From the NCBI RefSeq assembly GCF_024436435.1, contig NZ_JAFMZP010000011.1:1-64000 (forward strand): a DNA stretch of 64,000 bases. The letters run 5' to 3'. The notes under the pieces were generated by a model that searched no databases, was not told where the DNA came from, and saw nothing but the letters and a program-made list of their open reading frames with translations. The number at the start of each line of letters is the position of its first letter. The stretch's first letter is position 1. Made by a program: the position numbers and the translations under genes. Positions 3,654 to 33,000 of the stretch are shown one piece after another. Source of the DNA: Desertivirga xinjiangensis. Lineage in GTDB: Bacteria > Bacteroidota > Bacteroidia > Sphingobacteriales > Sphingobacteriaceae.

Positions 3654-3654
3654 A

Positions 3655-6012: not shown

Positions 6013-6037
6013 CGATAATTAGGAACGAATCAGACTT

Positions 6038-9532: not shown

Positions 9533-9560
9533 TGGTTACATCAACATATATTGTTAAAGT

Positions 9561-14931: not shown

Positions 14932-15908
14932 TGCTTTGTTCTGTAGTAATACCCATGTACAATGTTGAAAGGTTTATAGTGCGTTGCCTGGATTCTGTTT
15001 ATTCTCAGGGACTCTCTCATAACGAATTCGAGGTTATTTTGGTAAATGATGGTTCGACTGATAATTCGGTTGCGGTAGCTGAACTACACTTAAAGGATAA
15101 AAACAACTGCAAAATAATCTCACAAAGGAATAAAGGACTCGGAGGGGCAAGGAACACAGGAATTCTGGCGGCGCGTGGTAGGTACATATTATTTCTTGAT
15201 GCAGATGATAAAATTTTGCCCTCAGCTATTAAGTCTGTTCTAGATGTTGCCGAGCAAAACTCCCTGGAAATATTAGAATTTTCTGCAATAGGGGTTGACA
15301 TCAACGACAACTCGGTATATAGAGTTCAGAATACCACATACTCTAGCGTCGTTGATGGAATAAGTTACTATAATTCGATTCGCTACCTACACTCGGCTTG
15401 TAATAAGTTATATCTAAGAGATTTTTTAATGAAGAACAATCTGTTTTTTCTCGAGCAGATTTTTATAGAAGATTTTGAATTTAATACACGTACTTTTTCT
15501 CTGGCAAAAAGGGTTCTAGCAACAGATTCACTTGTTTGTGCTTTTCTCCAAACGGACAATTCAATTACCAGAACCACCGATAAGGATAGAAAGCGTAAAA
15601 TGATTAGCGATATCCTTTTAGTACTGAAGGAAACCCTTAACACCCAAAGGCGCATGATTAGCAATGCGTCTACAAACCAATTCTTTGAGGAACGAAAGGC
15701 GTTTTTAGTAGCGACAATGTTCTTTCAGTTAGTTAAGATCAGAGCTTCCTTTGTCGAAGTAAGAGCACTCAAAAAACAACTTGAGAAGGAAGGCCTCTTC
15801 TATGTGAACTACCGTATCTATGACTATAGAAAAAATTTATTCAGGTTATTCGTATTAAAACATATATGGCTGTACAGATTCATCAAACCCTGTTTTAGTT
15901 TATCTTAA
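14931..15908 (+). CDS. Glycosyltransferase family 2
   Basis: 325 residues: SVVIPMYNVERFIVRCLDSV, VILVNDGSTDNSVAV and FLDADDKILPSA. The C-terminal third is basic and helical. It begins on the last base of the polymerase gene. Fourth GT2 of the locus; it adds one sugar to the repeat unit. Confidence 0.88.
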   Translation: MLCSVVIPMYNVERFIVRCLDSVYSQGLSHNEFEVILVNDGSTDNSVAVAELHLKDKNNCKIISQRNKGLGGARNTGILAARGRYILFLDADDKILPSAIKSVLDVAEQNSLEILEFSAIGVDINDNSVYRVQNTTYSSVVDGISYYNSIRYLHSACNKLYLRDFLMKNNLFFLEQIFIEDFEFNTRTFSLAKRVLATDSLVCAFLQTDNSITRTTDKDRKRKMISDILLVLKETLNTQRRMISNASTNQFFEERKAFLVATMFFQLVKIRASFVEVRALKKQLEKEGLFYVNYRIYDYRKNLFRLFVLKHIWLYRFIKPCFSLS

Positions 15909-15912
15909 TTAC

Positions 15913-17067
15913 ATGTCTGTTAATATACAAAGCATGCCCAAGTTCTTCCTTATAACGACAGTCCCCATGTCGATGATCTTTTTTAAAGGGCAGATCACAT
16001 ACCTTAAGTCGTGTTTTGACATAAGTCTGATTTCGTCTCCTGGCGAAGAACTTTGCAACGCGGCGGAGACAGATAATGTTGCTTTCTACCCAATACCAAT
16101 GGAAAGGGATATTAATGTTTTCAAAGATCTAATCAGTTTGTTCAGATTGATTAAGCTGTTTAAGAGAGAAAGGCCAGATATTATACATTGTAATACCCCT
16201 AAAGGCGCTTTACTTTCGTTAATGGCGGGATTTTTTACATCCGTTCCTCACAGGATCTACTTTGTGCACGGCCTCAGGTATCAGGGCGCTTTGGGTGTTA
16301 AAAGAAGAATATTAATTCTTTTAGAAAAGCTATCCTGTTTATTTGCAACGAATATCATTGCTGTAAGTCAAGGAGTAAAGCAGATACTGCAAAAAGAAAT
16401 CACAAAAAAGAATATCGAAGTAATTGCCTTCGGGAGTTCAAATGGAATTGACCTTAACCTTTTTAATAAGGATCGTTACGATAGGTCTTCCTTGAAGAGG
16501 GAGCTTAATATTCCTCAGAATGACTTTGTGTTCGGTTTTATCGGTAGGATAGTGTCAGACAAAGGAATCAATGAGCTTGTTCACGCATTCAAAAATTTGT
16601 GTCTCACATACTCGGATATCACTCTTCTGTTGATTGGGGGCTTGGAGCAGAACCTGGATCCTTTGAAGCCGGAAACTTTGAAAGAAATAGCTGAAAATGG
16701 TAAGATTATACATTGTGGTGTTCAGGCAGATGTGAAGCCCTTTCTTTCAATTATGGACGTCCTCTCATTTCCAAGCTACCGGGAGGGTTTTGGGATGTCG
16801 GTTATGGAAGCTAATGCAATGGGTGTTCCAGCAATTGTGTCTAACATTACCGGATGTAACGAAATTGTCGAGAATGGAATAAATGGGTATTTAATTGAAC
16901 CCAGAAATATAGTTGATCTAATAGAAAAGATGCGGTTTTGTATAACAAACAAAGAAATTCTTAATGGAATGTCGCTAAATTGCCGTAAAATTGTTCAATC
17001 GAAATTTTCCCGGGACATTGTTTGGAATGAGGCTTTAACTAAGTATAGAAGTATCGCAGGGATATAA
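15913..17067 (+). CDS. Glycosyltransferase family 4
   Basis: 384 residues, GT-B fold. It resembles enzymes that add the second sugar to a bacillosamine-type lipid-linked primer: IIHCNTPKGALLSLMAGF, IYFVHGLRYQG, then FGFIGRIVSDKGINEL and FPSYREGFGMSVMEANAMG with the E-x7-E motif. The family link fits the PglC/D/E-like genes downstream. ATG 15934 (MPKFFLITTVP) is an alternative start that would remove seven residues. It is the last gene of the AT-rich core and is followed by 107 bp of AT-rich non-coding DNA. Confidence 0.88.
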   Translation: MSVNIQSMPKFFLITTVPMSMIFFKGQITYLKSCFDISLISSPGEELCNAAETDNVAFYPIPMERDINVFKDLISLFRLIKLFKRERPDIIHCNTPKGALLSLMAGFFTSVPHRIYFVHGLRYQGALGVKRRILILLEKLSCLFATNIIAVSQGVKQILQKEITKKNIEVIAFGSSNGIDLNLFNKDRYDRSSLKRELNIPQNDFVFGFIGRIVSDKGINELVHAFKNLCLTYSDITLLLIGGLEQNLDPLKPETLKEIAENGKIIHCGVQADVKPFLSIMDVLSFPSYREGFGMSVMEANAMGVPAIVSNITGCNEIVENGINGYLIEPRNIVDLIEKMRFCITNKEILNGMSLNCRKIVQSKFSRDIVWNEALTKYRSIAGI

Positions 17068-17174
17068 TTTACTTAAATAGTTTTACTAGTGTTATTAAGA
17101 TATTTATATACTTCAGTATCAAAATATTGAACATTCCTCAAGAGATTTCGTACTAAATTCTAGATTTTTATTAG
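17068..17174. other. AT-rich gap in the exopolysaccharide locus
   Basis: The only sizeable gap within the exopolysaccharide locus. It is very AT-rich with no recognisable gene, hairpin or clean TAnnTTTG element. It may hold a promoter for the Pgl-like half, or mark the junction between an exchanged glycosyltransferase core and the conserved end of the locus. Confidence 0.3.
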
Positions 17175-17777
17175 ATGTACATTATAGGAGCCGGGGGGCA
17201 TGGCAAAGTAGTTGCTGAACTTGCCGAATTAAACGGCAAAACAATTAAAGGTTTTATTGACGATGATAGCAGTAGGAATACAGTATTATCCTACAAAGTT
17301 TCAACTGTTTTTCCGGCCGAACCAGTCATGGCAGTGGTCGCAATTGGAAATAATATGGTAAGGCGCGAAAAAGCCTTGGAAAACAAGTTAGTTTTTTGCT
17401 CTCTGATACATCCTAAAGCATGTCTAAGTAGCCGAACTATCATTGGCGAAGGTACGGTGGTAGTAGGTGGCGCAACTATCAATATCGACGCCAGAATAGG
17501 AAGACATGTGATTATCAATACGAACTCCTCCGTAGGACACGACTGTGAGATCGGGGACTTTGTTCATATTGGTCCAAATGTTGCCCTGGCTGGAAATGTT
17601 AAGGTAGGCGAGGGCACGCATATTGGCTTAGGGGCTGCTGTTATACAGGGTGTGAGCATCGGGAAATGGTGTGTTATAGGAGCAGGCTCTGTGGTGATCA
17701 AAGACGTACCTGATGGCGCTATGGTGGTAGGTAATCCCGCCAGGATCATTAAAACACAGATTATAGAAACTGTATAG
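17175..17777 (+). CDS. NeuD/PglD-type sugar O/N-acyltransferase, copy 1
   Basis: 200 residues. The N-terminal Rossmann-like sugar-binding part opens with YIIGAGGHGKVVAELAE. The C-terminal left-handed beta-helix of hexapeptide repeats contains the catalytic His in NTNSSVGHDCEIGDF. PglD acetylates the 4-amino group of a UDP-amino-sugar; NeuD acetylates sialic acids. The PglE-like aminotransferase at 20413 supports the PglD role. A second copy lies at 19694-20293 and the two are clear paralogues. Confidence 0.88.
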   Translation: MYIIGAGGHGKVVAELAELNGKTIKGFIDDDSSRNTVLSYKVSTVFPAEPVMAVVAIGNNMVRREKALENKLVFCSLIHPKACLSSRTIIGEGTVVVGGATINIDARIGRHVIINTNSSVGHDCEIGDFVHIGPNVALAGNVKVGEGTHIGLGAAVIQGVSIGKWCVIGAGSVVIKDVPDGAMVVGNPARIIKTQIIETV

Positions 17778-17788
17778 AGTTCTGGCTG

Positions 17789-19096
17789 ATGAGATTTAGT
17801 GAATATATACGAAACAAGGCTTTCAGAGCTCTAGACAGAATGCGTAAAGAGCCGATAAACGGGATGATAAAAGAGTTAGACGCTTTTAATGCAGCCGGCA
17901 AACCGTATCAAGACGTTCTGATAAAATTAAACAGGTTCCTTAATGAAGTACAAACCTCTTCTGTTTTTTATGCCAATAATAATCCAGGAACGAACCTATC
18001 CGGGTATCCCATAGTAAAAAAACGTTTGTTAAAAGAACACATGGAGCAGGTGCTGTCTTCAAAATATACCAGGAAGGAATTGGTTCCCGTAACTACAAGC
18101 GGATCTTACGGCGTCCCTTTTACTTTTTATCTTACCCCGCAAAAGAAGAAGAGACAGCTGGCAGAGGTGATTCATTTCAGTTCCCGGGCAGGCTACCGGG
18201 TAGGTGTTTGTCATGGTTATTTTAGGACGAATTTACCTAAGAGCAGTCGTAAGCTGTGGTTTCAGAACCAGATTTTCATTCCCTCAAAAGTTCTTGATAA
18301 GCATTTTCTGGAAAACACCCGCTCTCTTTTAAAAAGTAAGAAGGTCAAGGTTTTGATCGGATTTCCTTCTGCGATGGCTTTATTAGCTACGTATTGCCTG
18401 GAGCAGGGCGACCGGCCGGAAGAGTTTGGAATTCAGGGTATCCTGGCTTTTGCAGAAAATTTGACTGCGAAGCATCGGGACTATCTCGTAAAAGCTTTTG
18501 GATGTCCGGTACATAGCAGGTATGCTACGGAGGAATTAGGAGTACTAGGCTATCAAACGGACAATCATAGTGGATTTGAGCTTAACAGTCTCAATTATAT
18601 TATTGAGGTATTAGATCTCGACAAAGATGTGAGTGTCAAGCCGGGGGAAGTTGGGAGAGTAGTGGTGACGGACCTACACTCGGATGCTATGCCCCTGATT
18701 CGTTACGAGACTGGAGACCTCGCACAACTTGGTCAAGTGTTTGATGAAAACCCTAATTGGGCGAAAAGCTTGACTTCCCTGTCCGGCCGGTCTGTGCAAT
18801 TGCTTTATGCTACGAATGGGGAAAGACTTTATCCTTTGTATATGGATCTCTTTATGGAAGAGTCTGAAATTTTCGTACAGTACCAAATGATCCAGGAATC
18901 AAAGAAACTTTTCACTTTAAAATTGGTTCCTAAAAGTAATTATGATCCAGCAGATTTTTCCGAAGATGCGCTTATTGCCGATTTGAAGAACTGGCTGGGG
19001 AGCGATGCGGAAATTAATATACAATTGGTAGAGGATATTGAAAAACTGCCTTCCGGTAAACGCCCATATATTATCAACAGGCTTGCAAGTGTATAA
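17789..19096 (+). CDS. CapK/phenylacetate-CoA ligase-like adenylate-forming enzyme
   Basis: 435 residues. AMP-binding signatures are visible: phosphate loop TTSGSYGVPF near residue 105, RYATEELGVLGYQ, and LIRYETGDLAQL. The C-terminal part has GRSVQLLYATNGERLYPLY and a terminal lysine region SGKRPYIINR. Family members activate a carboxylic acid as acyl-adenylate and usually pass it to CoA. CapK-like copies are frequent in capsule loci and their substrates are mostly unknown. It lies between two NeuD-type acyltransferases and could supply the acyl group for one of them; this is inference. Confidence 0.8.
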   Translation: MRFSEYIRNKAFRALDRMRKEPINGMIKELDAFNAAGKPYQDVLIKLNRFLNEVQTSSVFYANNNPGTNLSGYPIVKKRLLKEHMEQVLSSKYTRKELVPVTTSGSYGVPFTFYLTPQKKKRQLAEVIHFSSRAGYRVGVCHGYFRTNLPKSSRKLWFQNQIFIPSKVLDKHFLENTRSLLKSKKVKVLIGFPSAMALLATYCLEQGDRPEEFGIQGILAFAENLTAKHRDYLVKAFGCPVHSRYATEELGVLGYQTDNHSGFELNSLNYIIEVLDLDKDVSVKPGEVGRVVVTDLHSDAMPLIRYETGDLAQLGQVFDENPNWAKSLTSLSGRSVQLLYATNGERLYPLYMDLFMEESEIFVQYQMIQESKKLFTLKLVPKSNYDPADFSEDALIADLKNWLGSDAEINIQLVEDIEKLPSGKRPYIINRLASV

Positions 19097-19691
19097 ATTG
19101 ATCTTTAAACGTAGCCTGGATGTTTTTGTTGCTATTTTGGGTCTAGTAGTGCTAAGTCCGGTTTTAATAGTAATTACTGTATTGCTATATTTTACCACTA
19201 GTGGCAAGCCGTTCTTTCTGCAGTTGCGCCCGGGAATAAATGGTCGCATTTTCAAGATTATCAAGTTCAGGTCTATGAATGAAAAAAAAGATAAGAAAGG
19301 TGATTTGCTTCCGGATAGCATGCGTTTAACCTCAATTGGAGCTTTCATTCGCCGGACTTCGCTAGATGAAGTTCCACAATTAATCAATGTATTAAAAGGA
19401 GATATGAGCTTGGTTGGACCCAGACCGCTATTGCCGGCCTATCTTCCTTTGTATAACAAAGAACAGCGCCGAAGACATGAAGTGAAGCCAGGGATAACGG
19501 GTTGGGCGCAGGTGAATGGACGTAATGCTATTTCCTGGCAAAAAAAATTTGAGTATGACGTATGGTATGTTGACCATCTTTCTTTTGCACTGGATATGAG
19601 GATTGTGTGTTTCACGATATATAAAGTATTTAAACGAGATGGCGTCTCAGCAAACGGCGAGGCGACGATGCAGGCATTTAAGGGTAATTGA
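19089..19691 (+). CDS. Initiating sugar-1-phosphate transferase (PglC/WcaJ family)
   Basis: About 200 residues from a GTG at 19089 that overlaps the preceding gene by 8 bp. An ATG at 19038 would add 17 residues lying wholly inside that gene and not matching the family. An N-terminal re-entrant hydrophobic helix (SLDVFVAILGLVVLSPVLIV) is followed by KFRSM, the catalytic LDEVPQLINVLKGDMSLVG, and GPRPLLPAYLP. It lacks the extra N-terminal membrane domain of WcaJ and so matches the short PglC type. It attaches the first sugar phosphate to undecaprenyl phosphate and thus starts repeat-unit synthesis. Confidence 0.92.
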   Translation: MYKLIFKRSLDVFVAILGLVVLSPVLIVITVLLYFTTSGKPFFLQLRPGINGRIFKIIKFRSMNEKKDKKGDLLPDSMRLTSIGAFIRRTSLDEVPQLINVLKGDMSLVGPRPLLPAYLPLYNKEQRRRHEVKPGITGWAQVNGRNAISWQKKFEYDVWYVDHLSFALDMRIVCFTIYKVFKRDGVSANGEATMQAFKGN

Positions 19692-19693
19692 AT

Positions 19694-20293
19694 ATGTTAT
19701 ATTTATATGGGGCCGGGGGACATGCAAAGGTGGTGTTGGAAACTGCGGAAGAGTTAAATATTCCAATATCAGGAATAATAGACGAAAAGATAGTGGTTGG
19801 TACATTGTTTGATTATAGGATTTTTGTCCCCGGCGAGGTGTCCTTTTCTCAGGAAACACTGATTTTGTCAATAGGAGATAATTCGGCCAGAAAACAACTG
19901 GCAGAAAAATATGAACAAAAAACTTTTACTTCTTTGGTTCACCCGCGGGCTTATGTCTCCAGGCGCGCAGCAATTGGAGCAGGTTCCGTAGTTCTGGCCG
20001 GGGTAAGTATCAATTCATCCGTTATAGTTGGTGAGCATGTAATTATAAATACAAATTCATCGGTCGATCACGACTGTACGATAGGTGATTATGTGCATAT
20101 AGCCCCTAATGCCTGTTTAGCCGGTAATGTTACGGTTGGAGAGGGTGCCTTCATCGGAATGGGAGCTTGTGTAAAGCAGGGTATTAGGATTGGCAAATGG
20201 GCAGTTATAGGAGCAGGATCCGTTGTCTTGACAGATGTGCCTGATTTTTCTAAATTCTGGGGGAACCCTGCGAAAACCGGAACAAGAAAATAG
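19694..20293 (+). CDS. NeuD/PglD-type sugar acyltransferase, copy 2
   Basis: 199 residues, same architecture as the gene at 17175: LYLYGAGGHAKVVLETAEE, then hexapeptide repeats with NTNSSVDHDCTIGDYVHI holding the catalytic His. I chose ATG 19694, two bases after the initiating-transferase stop; a TTG at 19688 is possible. The two copies share most of the beta-helix and differ mainly in the N-terminal sugar-binding half, which suggests different acceptors or different acyl donors. Confidence 0.86.
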   Translation: MLYLYGAGGHAKVVLETAEELNIPISGIIDEKIVVGTLFDYRIFVPGEVSFSQETLILSIGDNSARKQLAEKYEQKTFTSLVHPRAYVSRRAAIGAGSVVLAGVSINSSVIVGEHVIINTNSSVDHDCTIGDYVHIAPNACLAGNVTVGEGAFIGMGACVKQGIRIGKWAVIGAGSVVLTDVPDFSKFWGNPAKTGTRK

Positions 20294-20412
20294 ATAAGAA
20301 AATTAATAGCTATGTGAAACATAGTAATGTTTTGACACATAGGATCAGTTATTGCTGTCATAAGCTACCTAAGAAATATTTTAATGAGTTTTATCAACTT
20401 ATTCTCCAATTT

Positions 20413-21609
20413 ATGAAATCGGAAATTTGGCTCTCATCGCCGCATATGGGTGGTATGGAAAAGCGGTTTGTAGAGGAGGCTTTTCTACAGAACTGGATTG
20501 CTCCGATGGGGCCTGACATTATTAAATTTGAAGAAAGTCTCGCCGATTATACAGGAGTTGGATATGCTGTTGCTTTGTCATCTGGCACTTCTGCTATACA
20601 TCTTGGCTTACAGTTGTTGGGTGTTATGAAGGGTGACGAGGTGATTTGCCAAAGTCTGACTTTTGTGGCAACGGCTAACCCTGTTATGTATCTTGGAGCC
20701 ACTCCTGTTTTTGTCGACAGTGAGAAAGGTTCCTGGAATATGGATCCTGAAGCTTTGGAGGCTGCTATAAAAGATCGTCTCGCAAAAGGAAAAAAAGTTA
20801 AAGCAATTATTCCTGTCCATTTATATGGTATGCCTGCGAAAATGGACGCCATTCTTGAGATTGCGGAAAGATACGAAATTCCGGTGTTAGAAGATGCAGC
20901 GGAATCGCTTGGTTCCAGGATAGGGGCTAAACAAACAGGCAAATTTGGACACTTAGCTGTCGTTTCTTTTAATGGCAATAAAATTATAACCACATCGGGA
21001 GGAGGCGCTCTCCTTTCCGATAGTGAGGAATATATTAATAAAGCGCGCTTTCTGGCCACCCAGGCAAAGGAGGAAGTTGTGCATTATGAACATAAGGAGA
21101 TGGGTTATAACTACCGAATGAGCAACATCTCGGCTTGTATCGGTAGAGGACAAATGTTGGTGCTGGATGAGAGGATACAGCAACGCCGTAAGAATTTTGA
21201 TTTTTATATCGAGCAGCTGGACTTTTCCGGCATTAGCTTCCAACATGAATCTGAAAAAGTTTTTTCAAACAGGTGGCTTACAGCGATACAAGTAAATCCG
21301 GAGTTGACAGGTGTATCTGGTGACGAGATCAGGCTTGCCCTGCTTGCCGATAATATAGAATCAAGGCCAGTTTGGAAACCGATGCATATGCAGCCGTTGT
21401 TTCAAGATTGTGCCTATTATGGCAATCAGGTAGCTGAGGAACTATATACCTACGGCCTCTGTCTTCCGTCTGGATCTAATCTCACGACAGGAGCGCTAAA
21501 TCGGGTCGGAACGATTATCAAGGGCATGTTGAAACATCAGAATCCTAGAAAGCAATTTGATGAAGACGAGCGTAATCTAAGTTCCCAGTTAGTTTTTGCA
21601 TCCCAATAG
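20413..21609 (+). CDS. PglE-like DegT/DnrJ/EryC1/StrS aminotransferase
   Basis: 398 residues. PLP-dependent fold type I: WLSSPHMGGMEKRFVEEAF at the start, ALSSGTSAIHLGL, VIPVHLYGMPAKMDAI, EDAAESLGSR, and the Schiff-base lysine in VVSFNGNKIITTSGGGAL. PglE and relatives aminate a 4-keto-6-deoxy UDP-sugar. With the NeuD/PglD-type genes it predicts an N-acylated 4-amino-4,6-dideoxy or bacillosamine-type sugar. The matching 4,6-dehydratase (PglF) is not in this window. ATG 20413 is chosen over an upstream GTG at 20314, whose extra 33 residues do not match the family. Confidence 0.92.
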   Translation: MKSEIWLSSPHMGGMEKRFVEEAFLQNWIAPMGPDIIKFEESLADYTGVGYAVALSSGTSAIHLGLQLLGVMKGDEVICQSLTFVATANPVMYLGATPVFVDSEKGSWNMDPEALEAAIKDRLAKGKKVKAIIPVHLYGMPAKMDAILEIAERYEIPVLEDAAESLGSRIGAKQTGKFGHLAVVSFNGNKIITTSGGGALLSDSEEYINKARFLATQAKEEVVHYEHKEMGYNYRMSNISACIGRGQMLVLDERIQQRRKNFDFYIEQLDFSGISFQHESEKVFSNRWLTAIQVNPELTGVSGDEIRLALLADNIESRPVWKPMHMQPLFQDCAYYGNQVAEELYTYGLCLPSGSNLTTGALNRVGTIIKGMLKHQNPRKQFDEDERNLSSQLVFASQ

Positions 21610-21755: not shown

Positions 21756-21763
21756 TAATTTTG
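21756..21763 (+). promoter_or_regulatory. -7 element upstream of the FAS-like operon
   Basis: TAATTTTG matches the TAnnTTTG consensus exactly, 17 nt before the ATG at 21781. A loose -33 candidate (TTTT at 21730-21733) lies 22 nt upstream, slightly long. It lies in a 171-bp gap after the aminotransferase, so the FAS-like operon can be transcribed separately from the exopolysaccharide genes. The rest of the gap holds only a weak GAGAT/ATCTC hairpin. Confidence 0.5.
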
Positions 21764-21780
21764 AGTATCTACCTGGTGCC

Positions 21781-22503
21781 ATGCAGAAACTGAAAGTATT
21801 AATTACGGGTGCCAGCAGGGGCCTGGGGCTGGCAATTTCGAAAAAACTGGAATCGGAGTATAGCCTTATTTTACATGCCTCTAAAGAGGAGAACTTGGGG
21901 GAGGTCGGCCCTGACAGCCACATCTTATGTGCAGATTTTTCGGATGCAGAACAAATTAATGCTTTTTGTAAGCAGTTAAAAAAGGATCATGGCGACAGCC
22001 TGTATGCAGTGATCAATAATGCGGGTCTAACCTTTGATAAACCCATCACCTTTCAGCCGGAGCGCGAGATTGACGCTATGATCAATGTCAATCTGAAAGC
22101 ACCCGTGATGATTTCTAAAACGGCCATGAAGATCTTTGGCCTGAACAAAAAAGGGGTTATTATCAATATAAGTTCAGTGGTTGGCGAAAGTGGAAACGCT
22201 TTTCAATCGGTGTATGCAGCTACCAAGGCCGGCCTGGTTGCGCTCTCAAAATCATTGGCGCAGGAAGCTGCGGCATTGAATGCCGGCCATGAAATCAGGG
22301 TGCTAAGTGTTTCTCCTGGCTTTATTGAAACAGACATGACTGATGCTATCCCGGAAACGGAAAAAGAAAAATATTTGAAGATGATACCGGCGCAGCGTTT
22401 TGGCAAAGTAGAGGATGTGGCCGAGGCTGTTTTATTTTTATTATCCGATAAGGCGTCTTATATTAACGGGACAAACATTAATATAAATGGAGGAATATTA
22501 TAA
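21781..22503 (+). CDS. 3-oxoacyl-ACP reductase (FabG-like SDR)
   Basis: 240 residues. Rossmann motif ITGASRGLGLAIS, NNAG motif, catalytic Ser in IINISSVVGESG, Tyr145 and Lys149 in VYAATKAGLVALSKSLAQE, and the FabG-like end SDKASYINGTNININGGIL. It should reduce a 3-ketoacyl-ACP with NADPH. It is the first gene of an operon with 2-6 bp gaps or overlaps through most of its length. Context with ACP, ketosynthase and enoyl reductase favours acyl-ACP as substrate over another SDR role. Confidence 0.85.
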   Translation: MQKLKVLITGASRGLGLAISKKLESEYSLILHASKEENLGEVGPDSHILCADFSDAEQINAFCKQLKKDHGDSLYAVINNAGLTFDKPITFQPEREIDAMINVNLKAPVMISKTAMKIFGLNKKGVIINISSVVGESGNAFQSVYAATKAGLVALSKSLAQEAAALNAGHEIRVLSVSPGFIETDMTDAIPETEKEKYLKMIPAQRFGKVEDVAEAVLFLLSDKASYINGTNININGGIL

Positions 22504-22506
22504 TTA

Positions 22507-23058
22507 ATGGACAATCTGGTAGGGGTTTCTCCCCAAAACATGTTGCTTCATGGTCCCACTAAACTGCTTTTGGACACTTATCACTGGCATTCGCCAAAAT
22601 TGGGTATTGTGGCAAGCTATACGCCTAAGGATAGGGATGTGGAAGACCATTTTGGTATTTTCAGAGGGGTGGATCAGATTGAGGCTTTTGCGCAGGCAAC
22701 TATAGTTTCGTGCGGGACTTTCCTGGAATGCCAAAAACAAAAATGTGATCCCCTTGATCTTAAAGATCAGTTTATTCCAGCATTTATCAGTATCGGGGCA
22801 GTTTACTTTCAGAACTACCTGGAGAAAGGCGATACTTTTATAAGCATCGGCTCCATTAAATTCTATAAGTTCAGGCAAATGGTCTGCGATGGAAGAATTT
22901 ATAAAGTGCCTCAAGGTTTGAACTTAGATGAGTATTTTAGCCATTTCAATGAAGATCGCCTTAAGGCATACGACCTTAGCGACGACTTTGGGCTGGTAGC
23001 AGAACTGAATGATATAACCGGCAGGGCATTGAAAAAAGAGCTTTTTAATAAAGATTAA
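22507..23058 (+). CDS. FabZ/FabA-like hotdog 3-hydroxyacyl-ACP dehydratase, divergent
   Basis: 183 residues. I see the hotdog-dehydratase core in DVEDHFGIFRGVDQIEAFAQ: His48 matches the catalytic His of the HFPGxPxMPG motif, and Glu59 matches the catalytic acid of the central helix (xxEAxAQ). The loop between them is about three residues shorter than in FabZ and has lost the PG-P-MPG residues. A GDTFISIGSIKFYKFRQMV strand matches the later hotdog sheet. It would supply the dehydration step missing from the operon otherwise. Assigned from motif and context; moderately sure. Confidence 0.65.
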   Translation: MDNLVGVSPQNMLLHGPTKLLLDTYHWHSPKLGIVASYTPKDRDVEDHFGIFRGVDQIEAFAQATIVSCGTFLECQKQKCDPLDLKDQFIPAFISIGAVYFQNYLEKGDTFISIGSIKFYKFRQMVCDGRIYKVPQGLNLDEYFSHFNEDRLKAYDLSDDFGLVAELNDITGRALKKELFNKD

Positions 23059-23064
23059 AGAATA

Positions 23065-23325
23065 ATGGAAAGACAAGAGATTATTGATGGTCTGGTAGAA
23101 ATACTTAAAACAGTCAGAACCATAGACCAGGACAAACTGGTTGCCGTAACCGAAGAAACGGATTTTATTGCCGACTTAAACACTCCTTCCACTGAAATGA
23201 TCAATATCGCTGCCAAGGCCGAACAGAAGTTTGATGTGGAATTTGAGGATGATGACATCGATGGCCTGGGTTCGACAGTGAAAGACATCGTTGATCTGAT
23301 TTTAAGAACAAAAGAAAGAGCTTAA
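23065..23325 (+). CDS. Acyl carrier protein with non-canonical attachment motif
   Basis: 86 residues, acidic, four-helix ACP pattern. The 4'-phosphopantetheine serine is Ser42 in LNTPSTEMINIAAKAEQKF, aligned with the usual G-A-D-S-L-D-x-V-E-L. The normal DSL triplet is replaced by PST. Helix II otherwise keeps the expected hydrophobic and acidic spacing. It would be loaded by the AcpS-like enzyme encoded at 25476 in the same operon and serve as the carrier for the whole cycle. Gap of 6 bp before and 2 bp after. Confidence 0.85.
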   Translation: MERQEIIDGLVEILKTVRTIDQDKLVAVTEETDFIADLNTPSTEMINIAAKAEQKFDVEFEDDDIDGLGSTVKDIVDLILRTKERA

Positions 23326-23327
23326 AC

Positions 23328-24677
23328 ATGCAAGTACCAGGCAGAAAGGTGGCGGTTGTCGGTATGGGAGGCGCTTTTCCTACCTGTTCTGATCTCAAGG
23401 ACTTCAGCAATAAGTTGTTCTCTGATCAGAGCCTGATCAGAGAGTGGGATAAAGCTACAGCCTACGGCAAAAATATCCGTTCAAGTGTTTCGGGTTTCAT
23501 CACGGAAGCGGAAATGGGTCTTGAGCCTATTTATTCTACACTGGTTGAAAATTATCCGGAGACTTATATCGATAAGCTGAACCGCATTCCTGATGCAAAC
23601 CTGGCAACAGCCGATATCGGAAGTATCTGGGCGATGCTGGGTGCCCAGGAGGCCATTGCGATGGCTGGCTGGAGCGATGCTGAAACACAGTCGGAAGGCA
23701 CAGGGGTGGTAGTAGGTTCCGGTGGAGGAGGTCATGAAATACTGCGGAATGCCTGGCATAGTTTCTTCCACCACAAGAAAAAAACACGGCTTGTGGGTTC
23801 GCATGCTGTAGACCGCGCCATGGTTTACCGCGATGCTGCCAATGTATCCTGCCTGATAAAGAACAAAGGGGTGTGCGAGTCAATAGGCTCAGCCTGTGCG
23901 ACAGGACTGGGTAATATCGGGTACGCTTACCGGCTGATCAGTTTCGGATTACAGGACCGTGCCATTGCAGGTGGGGTAGAAGGTACTTCCCTGGAAACAT
24001 TTATTGGTTTTGATGCGATGCAGGTGCTCAGCAGGGGCTTTTCTCCGGAGGAGAGCTCGCGGCCTTTTGATCTGCAGCGAAATGGCTTTGTTTGTTCTTT
24101 CGGAGGAGGAATCGTTGCCCTGGAAGAATACGAACTGGCGAAAGCCCGCGGTGCTGACATTATAGCTGTCATAGATAATTACTTTAATAATTCGGATGGC
24201 GATGGCGATATGTTCGCTCCTTCTTTTAGCGGTCAGCAGAGGCTCTGGAAAGGTTTAATGGCCGGCTCCGGTCAAAAACCGGATGTGGTTAAGGTGCATG
24301 GAACGTCTACGCCTGCAGGTGATGCGATAGAATTGTTGAGCGTAGTTGATGCCCTTGGGCATGACGGATATCATATTTCTGCACCTAAATCACAGTTTGG
24401 TCATATGTTGGGTGCTGCGGGTGCCGTTGAATTTATAACGGCTTTGCTGATGCTCAAGCATCAGAAAGTGCTGCCCTGCCTGAATTCGGCACATCTGAAT
24501 CCTGAGCAGGAATCTTTTCAGAAAAGCGGTCATTGGTTTGGACCATTTGAACCTCTTGCTGCATTCAGAGATCTGATACCGCAAAATAGCTTCTCAAAAG
24601 AGATTAACCACATTGCCTGTTTAAACTATGGCTTTGGCGGTACCAATAGTGCAATTTCTATTTCAAGAGAGCTGTGA
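23328..24677 (+). CDS. Beta-ketoacyl-ACP synthase (FabF/KAS II-like)
   Basis: 449 residues. Thiolase fold with full Cys-His-His triad: Cys190 in GSACATGLG, His324 in VHGTSTPAGDAIE, His359 in QFGHMLGAAGAVE. N-terminal VAVVGMGGAFPTCSDL and C-terminal NYGFGGTNSAISI are typical. Residue spacing between the triad members is within a few residues of E. coli FabF. There is no partner chain-length factor, which argues against an aryl polyene or classical type II polyketide system. It should elongate acyl-ACP by malonyl condensation. Confidence 0.9.
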   Translation: MQVPGRKVAVVGMGGAFPTCSDLKDFSNKLFSDQSLIREWDKATAYGKNIRSSVSGFITEAEMGLEPIYSTLVENYPETYIDKLNRIPDANLATADIGSIWAMLGAQEAIAMAGWSDAETQSEGTGVVVGSGGGGHEILRNAWHSFFHHKKKTRLVGSHAVDRAMVYRDAANVSCLIKNKGVCESIGSACATGLGNIGYAYRLISFGLQDRAIAGGVEGTSLETFIGFDAMQVLSRGFSPEESSRPFDLQRNGFVCSFGGGIVALEEYELAKARGADIIAVIDNYFNNSDGDGDMFAPSFSGQQRLWKGLMAGSGQKPDVVKVHGTSTPAGDAIELLSVVDALGHDGYHISAPKSQFGHMLGAAGAVEFITALLMLKHQKVLPCLNSAHLNPEQESFQKSGHWFGPFEPLAAFRDLIPQNSFSKEINHIACLNYGFGGTNSAISISREL

Positions 24678-25489
24678 TGATTGAGAATACGAATAAGATA
24701 GCTGTGGTTTTTGGCGTGAGGAACGAAAGTTCGATAGCCTGGGACATTGCGGTAAAGTTACAGCAATCGGGCTGTAAGATTGCTTTAAGCTATGTTAAAG
24801 ACACCAAAGATGAAGTATTGTACCTGATGGAAAGGCAGGGTATGGATACAAGCTTTGCAGCTGAAGTGGATGTAAGGGACGAAACTGAGATCAATGCTTT
24901 TCTTCAAAAGGTTTATCAGGGTCTGGGACCGATAGATTACTTGCTGCATGGAGTGGCTTTTGGAAGTCAGCAGGTAATGTGTTACTCGCTGCCGGGAAGC
25001 CAGGACCCTGCACCTTCTTACCTGGATATCCCTTTCGAAGATCTGATGGATTCTTTTAATATCAGCGCTTATTCGCTGTTAAGAATCTGCCGGGTAGCCC
25101 ACCCATTGTTTGCGAAAGGGGCCTCTGTACTCACGCTTACTTATAATGCTTCCCAGCGGGTTTTCCCCGGTTATGCAGGGATGGGCATTAACAAAGCTGC
25201 TCTTGAAAATATCATGCTCTATCTGGCCAGCTATTTCAGGGAGAGCCAGGTAAGGATAAATGCAATCTCGGCAGGCTTAGTGATGACAACGTCTGCCGGA
25301 GGGATAAATGGCGTTAGAAAATTACGGAAGCTTGGTAAGTTGACGGCGCCTCTGGGTAATGTAGACGCAGGAGATATAGGTGACGCGGCCTTGTATTACT
25401 TTTCAGCCCTATCGAAGAAAGTTACGGGAAATATTCATTTTGTTGATGGTGGGTTCAACATCATGGGAGTGCCGTATGATGGAGAGTAA
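24677..25489 (+). CDS. Enoyl-ACP reductase-like SDR (FabI family)
   Basis: 270 residues. FabI signatures: VVFGVRNESSIAWDIAVKL for the nucleotide site, LTYNASQRVFPGYAGMGINK with the Y-x6-K pair (Tyr166, Lys173), NAISAGLVMTTSAGGI, and the end FVDGGFNIMG. This subfamily reduces the enoyl double bond of acyl-ACP. The substrate loop is longer than usual around YSLPGSQDPAPSYLDIPFEDL. ATG 24677 overlaps the ketosynthase stop by one base; a GTG at 24674 is also possible. Its presence means the cycle can be fully reducing. Confidence 0.85.
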   Translation: MIENTNKIAVVFGVRNESSIAWDIAVKLQQSGCKIALSYVKDTKDEVLYLMERQGMDTSFAAEVDVRDETEINAFLQKVYQGLGPIDYLLHGVAFGSQQVMCYSLPGSQDPAPSYLDIPFEDLMDSFNISAYSLLRICRVAHPLFAKGASVLTLTYNASQRVFPGYAGMGINKAALENIMLYLASYFRESQVRINAISAGLVMTTSAGGINGVRKLRKLGKLTAPLGNVDAGDIGDAALYYFSALSKKVTGNIHFVDGGFNIMGVPYDGE

Positions 25490-25904
25490 TTTAGATACAG
25501 ATAGAATAACAGATAAAATTACTAACACAGTCAGCAGTGTGGCAGAAGGTAGAAGCTTTGTGGTTGGGAATGATCTTGTCTTTTTGCCCGATTTTAAACA
25601 CTCCCTTACGGAACTATTCAAGCAGAGAGTTTATACGGAAACTGAACGGAACTACTGTAATCTGTTCGATGATTCTTTGTTGAGGTATGCTTCTACCTGG
25701 GCAGCAAAGGAGGCGGTCTACAAAGCTATCAAGCAAATAGATCCGGCACCTTTATCATGGAGAAAAATAGAGATCCGCAGAGACAAAATTGCCGGCAAGC
25801 CCAGCGTGGTTTTACATGACCAAGAAAACTTTTACCCTATCAGCTTAACTATTTCACACGACGGCGACTATGTGTGGGCCCTGGCTATCTTATCACTTAA
25901 ATAA
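25476..25904 (+). CDS. 4'-phosphopantetheinyl transferase (AcpS-like)
   Basis: About 142 residues. AcpS pattern: FVVGNDLVFLPDF (metal-binding Asp), RVYTETERNYC, STWAAKEAVYKAIKQ with the catalytic Glu, and LTISHDGDYVWALAIL at the end. It converts apo-ACP to holo-ACP. Two consecutive ATGs at 25476 and 25479 are possible starts, both overlapping the enoyl reductase end, with GGGAG at 25465-25469 as ribosome site. The residues before about 30 are not conserved. A dedicated copy suggests the operon ACP is not well served by the housekeeping AcpS. Confidence 0.85.
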   Translation: MMESNLDTDRITDKITNTVSSVAEGRSFVVGNDLVFLPDFKHSLTELFKQRVYTETERNYCNLFDDSLLRYASTWAAKEAVYKAIKQIDPAPLSWRKIEIRRDKIAGKPSVVLHDQENFYPISLTISHDGDYVWALAILSLK

Positions 25905-25927
25905 TCATCAACAGATAATCATAAGAG

Positions 25928-26761
25928 ATGACTCAGCACTTTTTTGATCATTCTTTGGCCACGCTTAGTTATTATAAGTTTGGCGAAGGCACGCAAAAAA
26001 TGTTATGTTTTCATGGGTATGGTATGCATGGCAGGCAGTTTAGAGTGCTGGAAGAGGTTTTGGGCTCGAAATATACCTTTTATGGCTTCGACCTGTTTTT
26101 CCATGAGGGAACCAAGCTAAAACAACATAGTCTTGAGGTGGTTAAGGCTGGCTTGTCTAAGCAGGAGCTGGCAGGTATGATCATGGCGTTTTGTAAGCAT
26201 GAACAGATAGATCGCTTCTCGGTAATTGGCTATTCCATGGGTTCTCACTACGCCACCACTGTGGTGGAAGAGCTGGCTCAGCTGGTAGATGAGTATATTG
26301 TAGTAGCACCTTCTTCTTTAAATCCAGGAAGGATGGTTCGCTTTCTGAGTAAAAATAAGCTGGGAAATGGCTTGTTGGAAAAACTGGTATTGAGTAAAAA
26401 AGCCCTGATCAGACTGCTCAAGGTATGTCAGGCCATAAGGGTTGTTGACCGTTCAGGTTATGAAATATTGTATAAGGAGATTGCCACAGCTGAATTACGT
26501 TTTAATTTTTACGCTTGTTTCACCTATCTTCGGTTCCTGGAGACCGATGAAGCCAGGTTATTTGAAGTCCTTCGGGATAAAAAGATCAGATCCGTCTTTA
26601 TCTTTGGTAAACGGGATCTGATGTATCCACCAAGTATTGGCAACCGGTTTGTTTCGCAATTACAGCATGCCGAGGTACTGGTGCTCGACGAAAACCATGA
26701 AATGGTCAATCGAAATTTTGCACAGGTTCTTTCAAAAGCCCTTTTAGAAATACCGGCATGA
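25928..26761 (+). CDS. Alpha/beta hydrolase (possible thioesterase or acyltransferase)
   Basis: 277 residues. Oxyanion motif MLCFHGYGMHGRQF, nucleophile Ser103 in IGYSMGSHY, catalytic Asp in FGKRDLMYP and His in LDENHEMVN. A lid of about 90 residues follows the nucleophile. In this operon it could release the acyl chain from the ACP or act on the acyl product; nothing in the sequence decides this. 4-bp overlap with the following gene. Confidence 0.8.
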   Translation: MTQHFFDHSLATLSYYKFGEGTQKMLCFHGYGMHGRQFRVLEEVLGSKYTFYGFDLFFHEGTKLKQHSLEVVKAGLSKQELAGMIMAFCKHEQIDRFSVIGYSMGSHYATTVVEELAQLVDEYIVVAPSSLNPGRMVRFLSKNKLGNGLLEKLVLSKKALIRLLKVCQAIRVVDRSGYEILYKEIATAELRFNFYACFTYLRFLETDEARLFEVLRDKKIRSVFIFGKRDLMYPPSIGNRFVSQLQHAEVLVLDENHEMVNRNFAQVLSKALLEIPA

Positions 26762-27426
26762 TCATCAAAGACAAACCACTTCCACCGGCTGTTTTGAATT
26801 TCCTTTTCAGGATGTTGTGCTGGTTTTTAAGGAAGCGATTCAATAAGATGCCTATTGCAGGCGTTCCTATAAAGGCTGATCATTCGTACTTATTAATGTG
26901 TAACCACTTCAGTTTCTGGGATGGCTTCCTGGCAGTATTTTTATACCGGGGTTTATTGAGTAATGCTGTTGGTGAGAAGAACCTAAAAGGTATAAAGATC
27001 ATGGTGCTGAAAAAGCAGATGGAAATGAACTGGTGGCTTAAGTACTTTGGATGTTTTTCTGTTGAACCAGGCAGGGCTTCTATTGAGGAGAGCCTGAATT
27101 ACGCAGCTGAAATACTAAATACACCCGGAAACGTTTTGCTGATGTACCCACAGGGAAACCTTGAATCCAGCCATGTGCGTCATATCCTGTTTAAAGAAGG
27201 CATTGGAGAGATCGTCCCCAGAGTTCAGGGCAACTGTCAGATATTATGGAGCAGTAATATTCCTGAATATTTTGAAAGCCTCAAGCCATCGGTGTATTTT
27301 AATGTGCTGGATTGCGGTACCAATCATGAATTTGATTTTGAGGAACTTCAGGATAGGGTAAATAAGCATCACCTGGAATCGCTAAAAAGAACCATCCGGT
27401 TTACGCGGAATGCCCGAACGCACTGA
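26758..27426 (+). CDS. PlsC-like 1-acylglycerol-3-phosphate O-acyltransferase family
   Basis: 222 residues. The H-x4-D motif is NHFSFWDGF (His50, Asp55), and the second conserved block appears as MYPQGNLES instead of the usual FPEGTRS. Membrane-associated transferases of this family move acyl groups from acyl-ACP or acyl-CoA to a hydroxyl acceptor, mostly lysophosphatidate. The altered second block suggests an acceptor other than lysophosphatidate. Last gene of the FAS-like operon and its probable exit step. Confidence 0.82.
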   Translation: MIIKDKPLPPAVLNFLFRMLCWFLRKRFNKMPIAGVPIKADHSYLLMCNHFSFWDGFLAVFLYRGLLSNAVGEKNLKGIKIMVLKKQMEMNWWLKYFGCFSVEPGRASIEESLNYAAEILNTPGNVLLMYPQGNLESSHVRHILFKEGIGEIVPRVQGNCQILWSSNIPEYFESLKPSVYFNVLDCGTNHEFDFEELQDRVNKHHLESLKRTIRFTRNARTH

Positions 27427-27596: not shown

Positions 27597-29087
27597 TCAC
27601 TTCCCATTCACAACTTTCAGCCTTTCCTTCGCCTGGTTTTCAATGCTGCTTTCATATTCATGATCTTTCATCGAGATGGCCTGGTTGTAATAATACGTAG
27701 CCCTTTTATAATCCTTTTGCTGTTCAGAGATCTCCGCTATCTTGAGAGCTGAATTGGCCGCAAAATAGTAGCTGGCATTTTTTCCCAGGTAAATGGCCTT
27801 CTGATAATTGACAAGCGCTTCATTCAACTGGCTACTTTCTTCATAGATCCGTCCCAGGCGGTAGTGAAACTCGATTTTGTCCCTGAAGAAACTAAAGTCG
27901 TTTACATCTTTATCTTTCAACTGGGCAAGGGCTTTGGCGTAATCACCACCGTCGAAATACAATCTTGCTCTTAATAAAAAGGGATCCGGTGCCCTGTCAT
28001 TAGCTTCCCTTAGCGCTTGTTTGTCTTTTTCGTTATTAGTATATCCCTTGTTTTTGACCATTTTCAGGAAGTACGCATACTTACCCGTATCGTTATTCAG
28101 AAAGTAGAAATAAGCCAGTTTTAAATAAGTGTCTTTGATAAAGTTGGTCCCTTTATAGTGCTGAATGTATTTAGTCAGGTATACATGCGCATTGCTATCC
28201 ATGCGGTTGAGCTTCGCATTGCCCAGCAGGTAACTAAGGGCCGGAAATTTCTGCGAGTTTTCATTATTGGCACTGGCTTCCAGGAAAGCGATTGCTTCCC
28301 GGTTATGGCCCGTCTTAGCGGATACGTAGCCTTGCAGGTAAATTTTCAGCAGGCTGCCATTCTCCATTCCGGAGATGTACGAAATGAGTTTGGAATAAGA
28401 GTTTTTGTTATGAAGAATGTCAATATCAATATAGCAGATAAAGAAGATCACTTCATCTTTATAAAAGCTGTATGGCGACTTTTGAAGTTGCGTACGCAGG
28501 GAGTGGAGTTGGTTGATCCCAGCCTGACTGTCGCCTTTGATGCCTACAAGCTGAAGCGTTTTTTTTAAGTTGGAAGGGACTGATCCGAATATGACGTTTA
28601 TCAGGGCGAGGCTCTTCTGATTAGGCAGGAAGTCGGGATATTTTTGAGCGTTTTCTCTGAGGAGTCCTTTAGCCTTGTTTAGGTCCATCGCAGATGAGAA
28701 ATAATCGCCAAACCTGCCTTTTATAAGTCCCCATTGTAAATAGATCTCTGCCTGGGAGAAAAGGTAGTAGGGGGAATTTTTGTCTTGTTTTTCTAAGTCG
28801 GATATCCGGGAAGCTTTAAGGTCTTTTTGATTTTCGTACGCTGCTTTATTTTCAGAAGTTAATAGCTGGAAATAGCTTAGGTAATTGTCTAGCAGGATTG
28901 TAATTCCGTTCTGAGGGTTTTGCTGCTTTTCTTTCTGTATAAGTACTTTGGCTTCTTCTGCTTTTAAACTTAGAATGGCTTCGTAGGCCTTGATGCAGTT
29001 TGGGTTGAAATTGAAGGCTGCTTTCAGGCTGGGTTGTATGCTTAGCAAGGATAGGAGTAATAGAAGTTTTCTTCGGGTATTTAGCAT
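27597..29087 (-). CDS. TPR-repeat protein with signal peptide
   Basis: 496 residues. The N-terminus LLLLLSLLSIQPSLKA is a signal peptide. The rest is almost wholly helical with several tetratricopeptide repeats, clearest near the C-terminus (YRLGRIYEESSQLNEALVNYQKAIYLG and ATYYYNQAIS). It is probably a periplasmic scaffold of unknown partner. The ATG at 29087 is chosen over a TTG at 29096 because a TATTTTTG -7 element lies at 29094-29101, only 6 nt upstream of the ATG. Confidence 0.75.
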   Translation of the reverse strand: MLNTRRKLLLLLSLLSIQPSLKAAFNFNPNCIKAYEAILSLKAEEAKVLIQKEKQQNPQNGITILLDNYLSYFQLLTSENKAAYENQKDLKASRISDLEKQDKNSPYYLFSQAEIYLQWGLIKGRFGDYFSSAMDLNKAKGLLRENAQKYPDFLPNQKSLALINVIFGSVPSNLKKTLQLVGIKGDSQAGINQLHSLRTQLQKSPYSFYKDEVIFFICYIDIDILHNKNSYSKLISYISGMENGSLLKIYLQGYVSAKTGHNREAIAFLEASANNENSQKFPALSYLLGNAKLNRMDSNAHVYLTKYIQHYKGTNFIKDTYLKLAYFYFLNNDTGKYAYFLKMVKNKGYTNNEKDKQALREANDRAPDPFLLRARLYFDGGDYAKALAQLKDKDVNDFSFFRDKIEFHYRLGRIYEESSQLNEALVNYQKAIYLGKNASYYFAANSALKIAEISEQQKDYKRATYYYNQAISMKDHEYESSIENQAKERLKVVNGK

Positions 29088-29093
29088 AGATCC

Positions 29094-29101
29094 CAAAAAT
29101 A
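29094..29101 (-). promoter_or_regulatory. -7 element very close to the TPR gene start
   Basis: The minus strand reads TATTTTTG, an exact TAnnTTTG match, ending 6 nt before the start codon. The predicted transcript would be leaderless or nearly so. No strong -33 was seen. Confidence 0.45.
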
Positions 29102-30037: not shown

Positions 30038-33000
30038 TTAGCCTCGGTTGTAGATCTGCACCAAGGTCCTCAGTTCTTTTTCATGTTCCTTCTTTACCTG
30101 GTCGGGTAATAAGCGCCATGTCCAGTTATTTTCTGTGGATGCCGGGATATTCATGCGGTTACCTTCATCCAGACCGATGACGTCCTGCAATGGAAGTATC
30201 GCCGTTTTGGCTACAGAAGAATAAGCCAGGCGGGCCAAAATTTTATGGATGTTTTTATCCTTAGGTTTAAGTCCGGTATACATCCTGATCCGCTTTTTTA
30301 CAGCACTGTCAGCTTCCTGATGGAACCAGCCCAGCGTAGTATTGTTATCATGAGTTCCGGTATAAACAAAGAAGTTTTGTTTATAGTTATGAGGGATGTC
30401 GATAGAGTCGGGCAGGTTATCTCCAAAGGCGAACTGCAGGACCTTCATGCCTGGAAGTTTAAACTCATCGCGCAGATCGTAGACCGGCTGATCAATATCT
30501 CCCAGATCTTCTGCAATAAATGGTAGATTTCCTAATTGGGCCTCGAGTACTCTGAAGAAATCAGCGCCCGGCCCCTCCCGCCACTCGCCGTTTTTCGCAG
30601 TCTCCTCGTTTGCCGGAACTTCCCAGTAGGAAGAAAATGCTCTGAAATGGTCTAGTCGTAATAGGTCGAACAGTTCCATGTTTTTGCTGATCCGCCTGAT
30701 CCACCACTCATAATTTTGCTGTTTTAATACATCCCAGCGAAATACTGGCATCCCCCAAAGCTGGCCATTGTCATTGAAATAATCAGGAGGTACTCCTGCA
30801 GTTCCGGTTTGATTGCCTTCATTGTCTAAAAGGAATATTTCAGGATGCGACCACACATCCGATGAGTCGTAACTGACATAAAAAGGGAGGTCACCGAAAA
30901 GTTGAATACCTCTGTCGTTTGCATAAGCTTTTAGCTCCAGCCATTGCTTCATAAAAATAAACTGAAGCCACTTGGTCTTAAGCATCGTCTTTCCTTCGTT
31001 CTCAGTAAAGGTTTGGAGCGCTTCCTTATTTCTAAGTTTGTAGGCCTCAGGCCACTGATACCATGGCTTGCCACCAAGGTGTAGTTTTAGTGCGATGAAT
31101 AAAGCATAACTGTCAAGCCAGTAAGCTTCCTGTGCACAGAACTGGTCAAAGCCAGATTGCAGACGGCTAAAGTTTCCTGACAGAAAGGTTGAAAATGCTT
31201 TTTCAAAGAGCTTGTCTTTCAGTTTTTCTGCATGCTTAAAATCTGCCTGGCTCTTTGATGGCAGGGTATCGTTCAGGTCGTTTTTATTAAGAAGTCCTTC
31301 CTCCACAAGTAACTCGGGACTGATAAGCAAGGTGTTGCCAGCCATGCTGGAAATGGCGCTGTAAGGGGAGTAACCCTGACCTGCTTCCGTTGGGCTTAGC
31401 GGCAATATCTGCCAGAGCTTCTGTTTACTTCGGTACAGGAAGTCGGCGAAATTCTTCGCTTCAGGACCCATATCCCCCACCCCGAATGATGAGGGCAGCG
31501 AAGAAATATGAAGTAAAATTCCACCTCCACGGGTATTGATTGGTTGTTTTAGTTTTAGCACTGAAAATGGCACAGTCTCAAACAGATCTTTTACCAGCAA
31601 TTCGCCCTCATTTTTTCCCTTGGTTTTTAAGAGCACATTTTCCCAGACAACCGGAGCTTCAGCTGGTAAGATGATGCGGGTGTTTTTCCACTTTAGGTTA
31701 GCGAGATCGGTTTTCTCCGCCTTGGCCATGGATGCCAGGTGCAGCGGCACTGCAACAACATACCATGTTTGTTTGTGCCTGCGGGCAAAAGCCATAACCT
31801 TGTCTTTATGTTTACCTTTTACTTTTAGCGGGATATAATCGGCTTTTTCAAAGGTGTCGTTTTCCAGTTTACGTTCATTCAAAAGAACGGAAGTAAGCCA
31901 TAGCTTGATTTTGCCGTTATAGCGATTTTGCCAGAGCTCTGTATAAAGTTCCTTTTTGTCTTTTACAGAAGATATTTCTTCGAGCCACAGCCTTCGCTTC
32001 TCATAGTCTACCGGACGACGATTGTCGGGGTCAACAAAGCTAAGATCCCAAAGCTCGCAGCCTTGATACACATCGGGTACACCCGGACACGTAAATTTCA
32101 ATAGGACCTGCACCAGCGAGTTTACTATTCCATAGTCCAGTATTTTGTTGCGGAAACTCTCAAAATGTCTCCAGAACGGCTTGTCTTTCTGTAGAAGTGC
32201 TGCAATGAAATTCTTTGTCGCCGTTTCGTACGCTTCGTCAGGTTTCGACCAGTTTGAATTTTGCTTCCCTTCGCGCAAGGCTTTCTCGAGATACTGTTGT
32301 ATTCGCTCCAAAAAATCATCTTCTTCCTCTCCTGGCATCGGATATGCTCCTGCCAGGCTTTGATAGATGAAATATTCATCATTTAAGTCGGGGGCCTGAT
32401 TCTGTTTTAAGGGCGCATTGAGGTATTGCCATAGCTTTACCGATTCAATCCATTCCTCGGGCAAGTCTGTCAGAACATTTAATCTGGCACGAACATCTTC
32501 CCCACGCTTGGTATCATGCGTGGAGGTGGCATTGGCCGAAAGGGGCCAGCGTGTCTGCCTTGCTTTCATTTTCTCATGAAAAACATCAATGCTGATACCG
32601 AATGATTCAGGCGCATCTCCCACTTCATTGTGCGCAATAAAGCGGTTATAAGTATACATAAGAGTATCTTCAACGCCCTTGGCCATTAAGGGACCGGTAA
32701 ACTGCATAAGCCGCTGATAGAAGCGTAAGGCGACCGCATTGTATTCCCTGTTACCGAGTTTAGGCTTCTTCAATATGGCTTTTGAAAGCAGTTCAACTTG
32801 ATTGTTCAGTTCAGGCTTTTTCTTTTTTACGAGTTTTAGTATCTCGGAAATTTCATTTTCCTCTTTACGGTCAAGAGGAAGCTGGTTGCCATAAAAGCGG
32901 TAAACGGGGCAATGAATAAGGAACTCGGCGATAGCTGTTTTAAGATTTTCACCTTCTCCCGCCTCGTATTCAGCCTCATCACCCAGGCCAAGATTAATAA

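Follow-up and report, generated by a model that had tools for sequence, protein, structure and literature searches.

In Rhizobiales, the acpXL-fabZXL-fabF2XL-fabF1XL-adhXL-lpxXL cluster provides lipid A with its very long chain fatty acid (PMC11901934). In the known aminolipid systems, the PF13444 N-acyltransferases take their acyl group from an acyl-acyl carrier protein (acyl-ACP) donor and are paired with PlsC-like O-acyltransferases of the OlsA/GlsA kind (PMC11631085). Aryl polyene and flexirubin clusters are secondary type II fatty acid synthase (FAS) or polyketide synthase systems with a ketosynthase (KS), a ketoreductase (KR), an ACP and a phosphopantetheinyl transferase (PPTase). Here we compare these systems with a cassette of eight genes in Desertivirga xinjiangensis (Sphingobacteriaceae), at positions 21781-27426 of a window that comprises the first 64,000 nucleotides of contig NZ_JAFMZP010000011.1. 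The cassette is very probably a complete secondary FAS that is restricted to certain lineages and has a private ACP and off-loading enzymes of its own. A full second cycle of fatty acid synthesis that comes with a separate ACP and PPTase is, to our knowledge, rare in bacteria.

The acpXL-lpxXL cluster is the nearest functional analogue, with a dedicated ACP, dehydratase, ketosynthase, dehydrogenase and terminal acyltransferase clustered apart from primary FAS. What defines it is the very long chain (C26-C34) that it makes for lipid A. Whereas it has two FabF proteins and an LpxL-type acyltransferase, the cassette has one KS, a FabG-type KR, a FabI-type enoyl reductase (ER), its own PPTase and hydrolase, and an acyltransferase (AT) of predicted PlsC fold; the order of the genes, the ACP motif and the phylum also differ. 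We rejected membership on gene set, order, acyltransferase class and phylum. Aryl polyene and flexirubin clusters have a heterodimer of KS and chain-length factor and no enoyl reductase. In contrast, the cassette encodes a single KS with Cys-His-His intact and a FabI-type ER, and it holds no chain-length factor or aromatic starter genes. An earlier note on this DNA had argued against such a cluster, and the intact ER, the single KS and the missing chain-length factor bear it out; membership was rejected on the ER and the chain-length factor.

The likeness to OlsB/OlsA, GlsB/GlsA and OlsF (PMC11631085) lies in the use of acyl-ACP with a GNAT and/or a PlsC-like O-acyltransferase, as among the off-loading genes of the cassette family. 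The known aminolipid systems borrow 3-hydroxyacyl-ACP from primary FAS, whereas the cassette has a dedicated FAS to supply the chain. The cassette is not the known OlsF-type pathway, because a 603-aa PF13444 protein of OlsF-like size lies elsewhere in the same genome. The N-acyl amino acid synthase FeeM is likewise a GNAT that uses acyl-ACP, and a FeeM-like gene accompanies three distant relatives of the cassette.

Results

The eight open reading frames (ORFs) of the cassette all lie on the + strand in the order KR-DH-ACP-KS-ER-PPTase-hydrolase-AT, where DH is the dehydratase, with successive gaps or overlaps of +3, +6, +2, -4, about -14, +23 and -4 bp. Pfam and NCBIfam placed the products in the SDR/FabG, ACP, FabB/FabF-type KS, FabI, PPTase, alpha/beta hydrolase and PlsC-type acyltransferase classes. 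Depending on the protein, 57-81 distinct homologues were compared, and the predicted catalytic residues of the enzymes vary little or not at all. The earlier note had described eight tightly packed genes, in agreement with the ORF coordinates, these families and a FabZ fold model. Its end of the operon at 27426 stands, but its start at 21756 does not, the first coding base being 21781. Position 21756 falls on a promoter-like box, TAATTTTG (21756-21763, + strand), which is of the Bacteroidetes -7 type and probably belongs to the cassette's own promoter. In 46 of 76 distinct loci the motif TANNTTTG lies no more than 100 bp ahead of the KR gene, compared with 7.8% in shuffled sequence, and the cassette is probably driven by its own Bacteroidetes-type promoter in most cases.

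The four enzymes of the cycle could all be assigned. The KR (21781-22503, +) is a FabG-type SDR (PF13561/PF00106) whose top NCBIfam model, 3oxo_ACP_reduc, scored below cut-off; its catalytic S/Y/K/N show little or no variation among 78 distinct homologues. Searches of Pfam and NCBIfam gave no family match for the DH (22507-23058, +). We built an AlphaFold model from 18 family sequences (predicted local distance difference test, pLDDT, of 90), and the top Foldseek matches in the PDB were all FabZ dehydratases. H48 and E59, conserved in 80 of 80 distinct sequences, occupy the FabZ catalytic positions, and the loop is 3 residues shorter than in FabZ. The KS (23328-24677, +; PF00109/PF02801) is of the FabB/FabF type, with FabB as its closest solved relative. 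It conserves C190, H324, K354 and H359 (81 sequences) and, as read from its sequence, is an active condensing enzyme and not a chain-length factor. Next to the catalytic His, the KS also carries a fixed Thr-to-Phe change, F357, which turns the FabB/FabF motif KSxTGH into KSQFGH (F in 79 of 81 cassette KSs). The ER (24674-25489, +; PF13561) has FabI proteins as its closest solved relatives, and Y157, Y167 and K174 are invariant in all 75 sequences. The cassette thus holds separate KS, KR, DH and ER proteins with intact active sites and a serine-bearing ACP, as in a type II (dissociated) FAS. Neither the malonyl transferase FabD nor the priming KS FabH is among the cassette genes, as the earlier note had observed; secondary FAS clusters need not contain them, and both would have to come from the primary pathway.

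The dedicated ACP (23065-23325, +) matched NCBIfam acyl carrier protein models below cut-off. Its phosphopantetheine serine is S42, and the surrounding motif is PS(T/S/A) instead of DSL. The serine and the preceding Pro are invariant in all 57 distinct cassette ACPs, and the motif is also kept in distant relatives outside Sphingobacteriaceae. Some loci seemingly have no ACP; these cases coincide with longer antisense ORFs and were taken as an artefact of the ORF filter. The PPTase (25476-25904, +; PF01648, TIGR00556; likely start 25476 or 25479) has D65, K110 and E111 invariant in 75 of 75 sequences (numbering of the longer ORF from 25380) and is one of two PPTases in the genome, the other being at C20:63290. 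The DSL region of ACPs forms part of PPTase recognition, and the presence of a dedicated PPTase in almost every cassette therefore fits an orthogonal ACP-PPTase pair. That PS(T/S/A) replaces DSL, and that the cassette encodes a PPTase, suggests that this pair is private.

We located the primary pathway of the same genome elsewhere. The acpP-fabF-rnc genes lie at L076:9350-11683, and their ACP has the canonical DSL. A second FabI is encoded at L078:7283-8107 and another KS of 418 aa on L075. The genome has one other FabA/FabZ-domain protein, a 475-aa frame that is presumably LpxC-FabZ. This primary FAS II (acpP, fabF, fabI, lpxC-fabZ) has reaction types like those of the cassette, but the loci differ, and in an alignment the two ACPs are 30% identical, with PST in the cassette and DSL in the primary protein. 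Since the canonical acpP-fabF and FabI are located elsewhere, we rejected the cassette as the primary FAS of the organism. These loci uphold the earlier note's proposal of a separate type II cycle, fully reducing and outside primary metabolism: the cassette does not hold the sole fabG, fabF and fabI copies of the genome, in which further fabF and fabI exist.

The last two genes are candidates for off-loading. The alpha/beta hydrolase (25928-26761, +; PF00561), a probable thioesterase or acyl transfer helper, conserves the catalytic Ser/Asp/His (67 sequences). The AT (26758-27426, +; PF01553) has H50 and D55 of the HX4D motif invariant in 70 of 70 sequences. A sequence profile of the AT gave no match in the PDB, and fold comparison was used instead. 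The top Foldseek match of its AlphaFold model (pLDDT 88) is the PlsC of Thermotoga maritima (5kym), ahead of LpxM, and the HX4D motif with the modelled LPLAT fold places the protein in the PlsC/LPLAT superfamily.

Outside Sphingobacteriaceae, four cassettes, from Zobellia, one Flavobacteriales metagenome-assembled genome (MAG) and two further Bacteroidia genomes, are arranged KR-FabA-DH-ACP-KS-ER-PPTase and come without the hydrolase/AT pair. In three of them (L153, L162 and L163) a GNAT gene overlaps the KR start. The encoded protein conserves a Glu-x-x-Arg motif and weakly resembles FeeM/OlsB, with FeeM and Acetyltransf_5 matches below the Pfam cut-off. The Zobellia cassette has an alpha/beta hydrolase at this position. 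A GNAT (PF13444-like) gene is absent from the Sphingobacteriaceae cassettes. Because the distant cassettes carry a GNAT or another hydrolase instead of the hydrolase and PlsC, the FAS core appears constant and the off-loading enzyme swapped. In the four distant cassettes (L151, L153, L162 and L163) the FabA is additional to the neighbouring FabZ-fold DH and keeps its His/Asp intact, which gives each of them two dehydratases.

The DH, the most specific marker, was detected in 57 of 301 sampled Sphingobacteriaceae genomes, representing 7 of 25 genera. Among members of the Pedobacter/Mucilaginibacter family from soil and fresh water, some carry the cassette. A scan of GTDB genomes retrieved 74 loci in Pedobacter, Mucilaginibacter, Daejeonella, Pelobium, Albibacterium, Pseudopedobacter, Zobellia barbeyronii and one Flavobacteriales MAG. 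In a sample of 396 genomes across the phylum, the DH search matched members of Sphingobacteriaceae only. One sampled family (f2) gave two clear further genomes, both of one genus, and one marginal match without a cassette (G906, L164); in another (f4), searched with no positive control, none was found. A plasmid-borne cassette was rejected, as 72,556 plasmids gave no match. We compared the eight-gene order across Sphingobacteriaceae, as the earlier note had proposed. The order is almost fixed, being kept in nearly all loci, and the surroundings vary, the upstream side freely. The grouping is not a matter of chance, as the genes stand in this order in dozens of related loci. A pair like a RES-domain toxin and an Xre-type antitoxin is inserted between the PPTase and the hydrolase in three Pedobacter genomes (L035:13004-13965, L036 and L038; also L081, L084 and L099). 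In three Sphingobacteriales MAGs (L091, L103 and L109) the cassette is broken up, with DH-ACP-KS lacking an adjacent KR and other genes replacing the tail.

A secreted TPR protein (27597-29096, -; Pfam TPR) is a conserved neighbour. Its gene adjoins most cassette loci, either convergent downstream or co-directional upstream, and the protein occurs in 160 of the 301 Sphingobacteriaceae genomes, including nearly all cassette carriers. A maximum-likelihood tree of 64 TPR proteins splits with 100/100 support into a cassette type (37 rows) and another type (21 cassette-less genomes and 6 cassette genomes). All 37 rows of the cassette type come from cassette genomes, including 8 in which the TPR gene lies elsewhere in the genome. 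The linkage between TPR subtype and cassette is real, functional or merely physical. The window's genus, Mucilaginibacter (g14), g13 and g21 appear on both sides of the split. The subtypes are old, and one of them is confined to cassette-carrying genomes among the 64 sampled proteins, even when non-adjacent. Farther along the window, a 1404-aa ORF (30038-34252, -) reads like a maltooligosyltrehalose synthase (TreY) fused to a 4-alpha-glucanotransferase (MalQ).

Discussion

We propose the following mechanism. The cassette PPTase would first load the atypical cassette ACP. The primary FabD would provide the malonyl groups, and FabH or decarboxylation by the KS would provide the primer. Given the domains and residues found, the KS, KR, DH and ER would run an iterative, fully reducing cycle on this ACP, and the PS(T/S/A) motif and dedicated PPTase would keep the resulting acyl-ACP pool apart from the primary one. 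The PlsC-fold AT may then join the saturated acyl chain through an ester bond to a special acceptor, of which an envelope lipid or a lyso-aminolipid is the likeliest, and the hydrolase may release or proofread the chain. In the envelope, the secreted TPR protein would probably act as a partner. Off-loading would be interchangeable, with the hydrolase and PlsC in Sphingobacteriaceae and, in distant relatives, a GNAT of weak FeeM/OlsB likeness or a different hydrolase.

The route from acyl-ACP through the PlsC-fold AT to an envelope lipid is our best guess, held with modest confidence. An aminolipid or other envelope lipid is the most likely destination because PF13444 enzymes use acyl-ACP and are paired with OlsA/GlsA-type O-acyltransferases. 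More tentatively, the portable FAS module and the orthogonal ACP-PPTase pair could create a private acyl-ACP pool from which swapped off-loading enzymes give different acyl lipids across Bacteroidota. Several observations weigh against these readings. The papers searched named no product for the cassette. Off-loading is not uniform, as the hydrolase is absent from L066, L073, L106, L111 and L148, and the hydrolase and AT are both absent from L050. The match of the GNAT to FeeM and Acetyltransf_5 falls below the Pfam cut-off, and the 6 cassette genomes on the other side of the TPR tree have that other subtype only. The earlier note had held that a homologous cluster with an assigned product would speak against its proposal; literature searches for a described homologue or such a cluster found nothing relevant, though few subscription journals were covered.

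It is unlikely that the cassette duplicates primary FAS and PlsC as a conditional spare for bulk membrane phospholipid, called on in the cold, for instance, or when FabI is inhibited. All the cycle enzymes and a PlsC-fold acyltransferase are present, and several carriers have names that refer to cold (P. psychrophilus, P. arcticus, P. cryophilus), which are names only and not a tested association. However, the cassette brings its own PPTase along with an ACP that lacks canonical DSL, the cassette AT is a remote PlsC homologue (26 bits, compared with 71 for the best PlsC of the genome), and distant relatives use a GNAT instead. We consider it similarly doubtful that the product is a free fatty acid or small acyl metabolite, with the hydrolase freeing the chain and the AT making a soluble ester or amide that acts as a signal or surfactant. 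Although the active site of the hydrolase is intact in most cassettes, and the upstream hydrolase of Zobellia and the FeeM-like GNAT of three distant cassettes would suit such a product, no transporter, oxygenase or AMP ligase is conserved alongside the cassette, and the PlsC fold normally acylates membrane lysolipids.

The earlier note had raised the idea that the acyl group decorates the neighbouring exopolysaccharide (EPS), which now seems very improbable. In the window, the cassette is preceded on the same strand by an EPS locus (about 2880-21609) that includes amino-sugar genes of the PglC/PglD/LegC type; 171 bp separate the two. However, among about 78 distinct related cassettes, EPS-type genes lie near two or three, with several near L113 (Pedobacter sp. 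B4-66) only and a single one near one more (L048 and L105, the same cassette). The cassette is conserved independently of the polysaccharide locus, a comparison that the earlier note had suggested, and the neighbours are otherwise unrelated. Because EPS-type genes are rare near other cassettes, and the cassette usually has what is probably its own promoter, the link is only local; the adjacency is a local coincidence, and EPS acylation as a general function was rejected. The end of the EPS locus (17175-21609, +) encodes two PglD-like acetyltransferases, a PglC-like sugar transferase, a LegC-family aminotransferase and a PaaK/FlxY-like adenylate-forming protein, which together may form a route to a 2,4-diamino sugar that includes an unusual gene for acyl activation. 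A reduced aryl polyene or flexirubin-type polyene cluster is hardly credible, for although the KS, KR, ACP, DH, PPTase and acyltransferase classes are held in common and the KR scores 174 bits against FlxB (cut-off 340), the cassette has a FabI-type ER with intact Y/Y/K and lacks a chain-length factor, an ammonia lyase and genes for polyene transport.

With PS(T/S/A) throughout and a dedicated PPTase, the cassette lends itself to direct tests of carrier-protein orthogonality, and such a pair would help to engineer acyl-ACP pools that are insulated. Should the product prove to be a new envelope lipid, the cassette would open it to genetics in roughly one in five sampled Sphingobacteriaceae, among them culturable Pedobacter and Mucilaginibacter.

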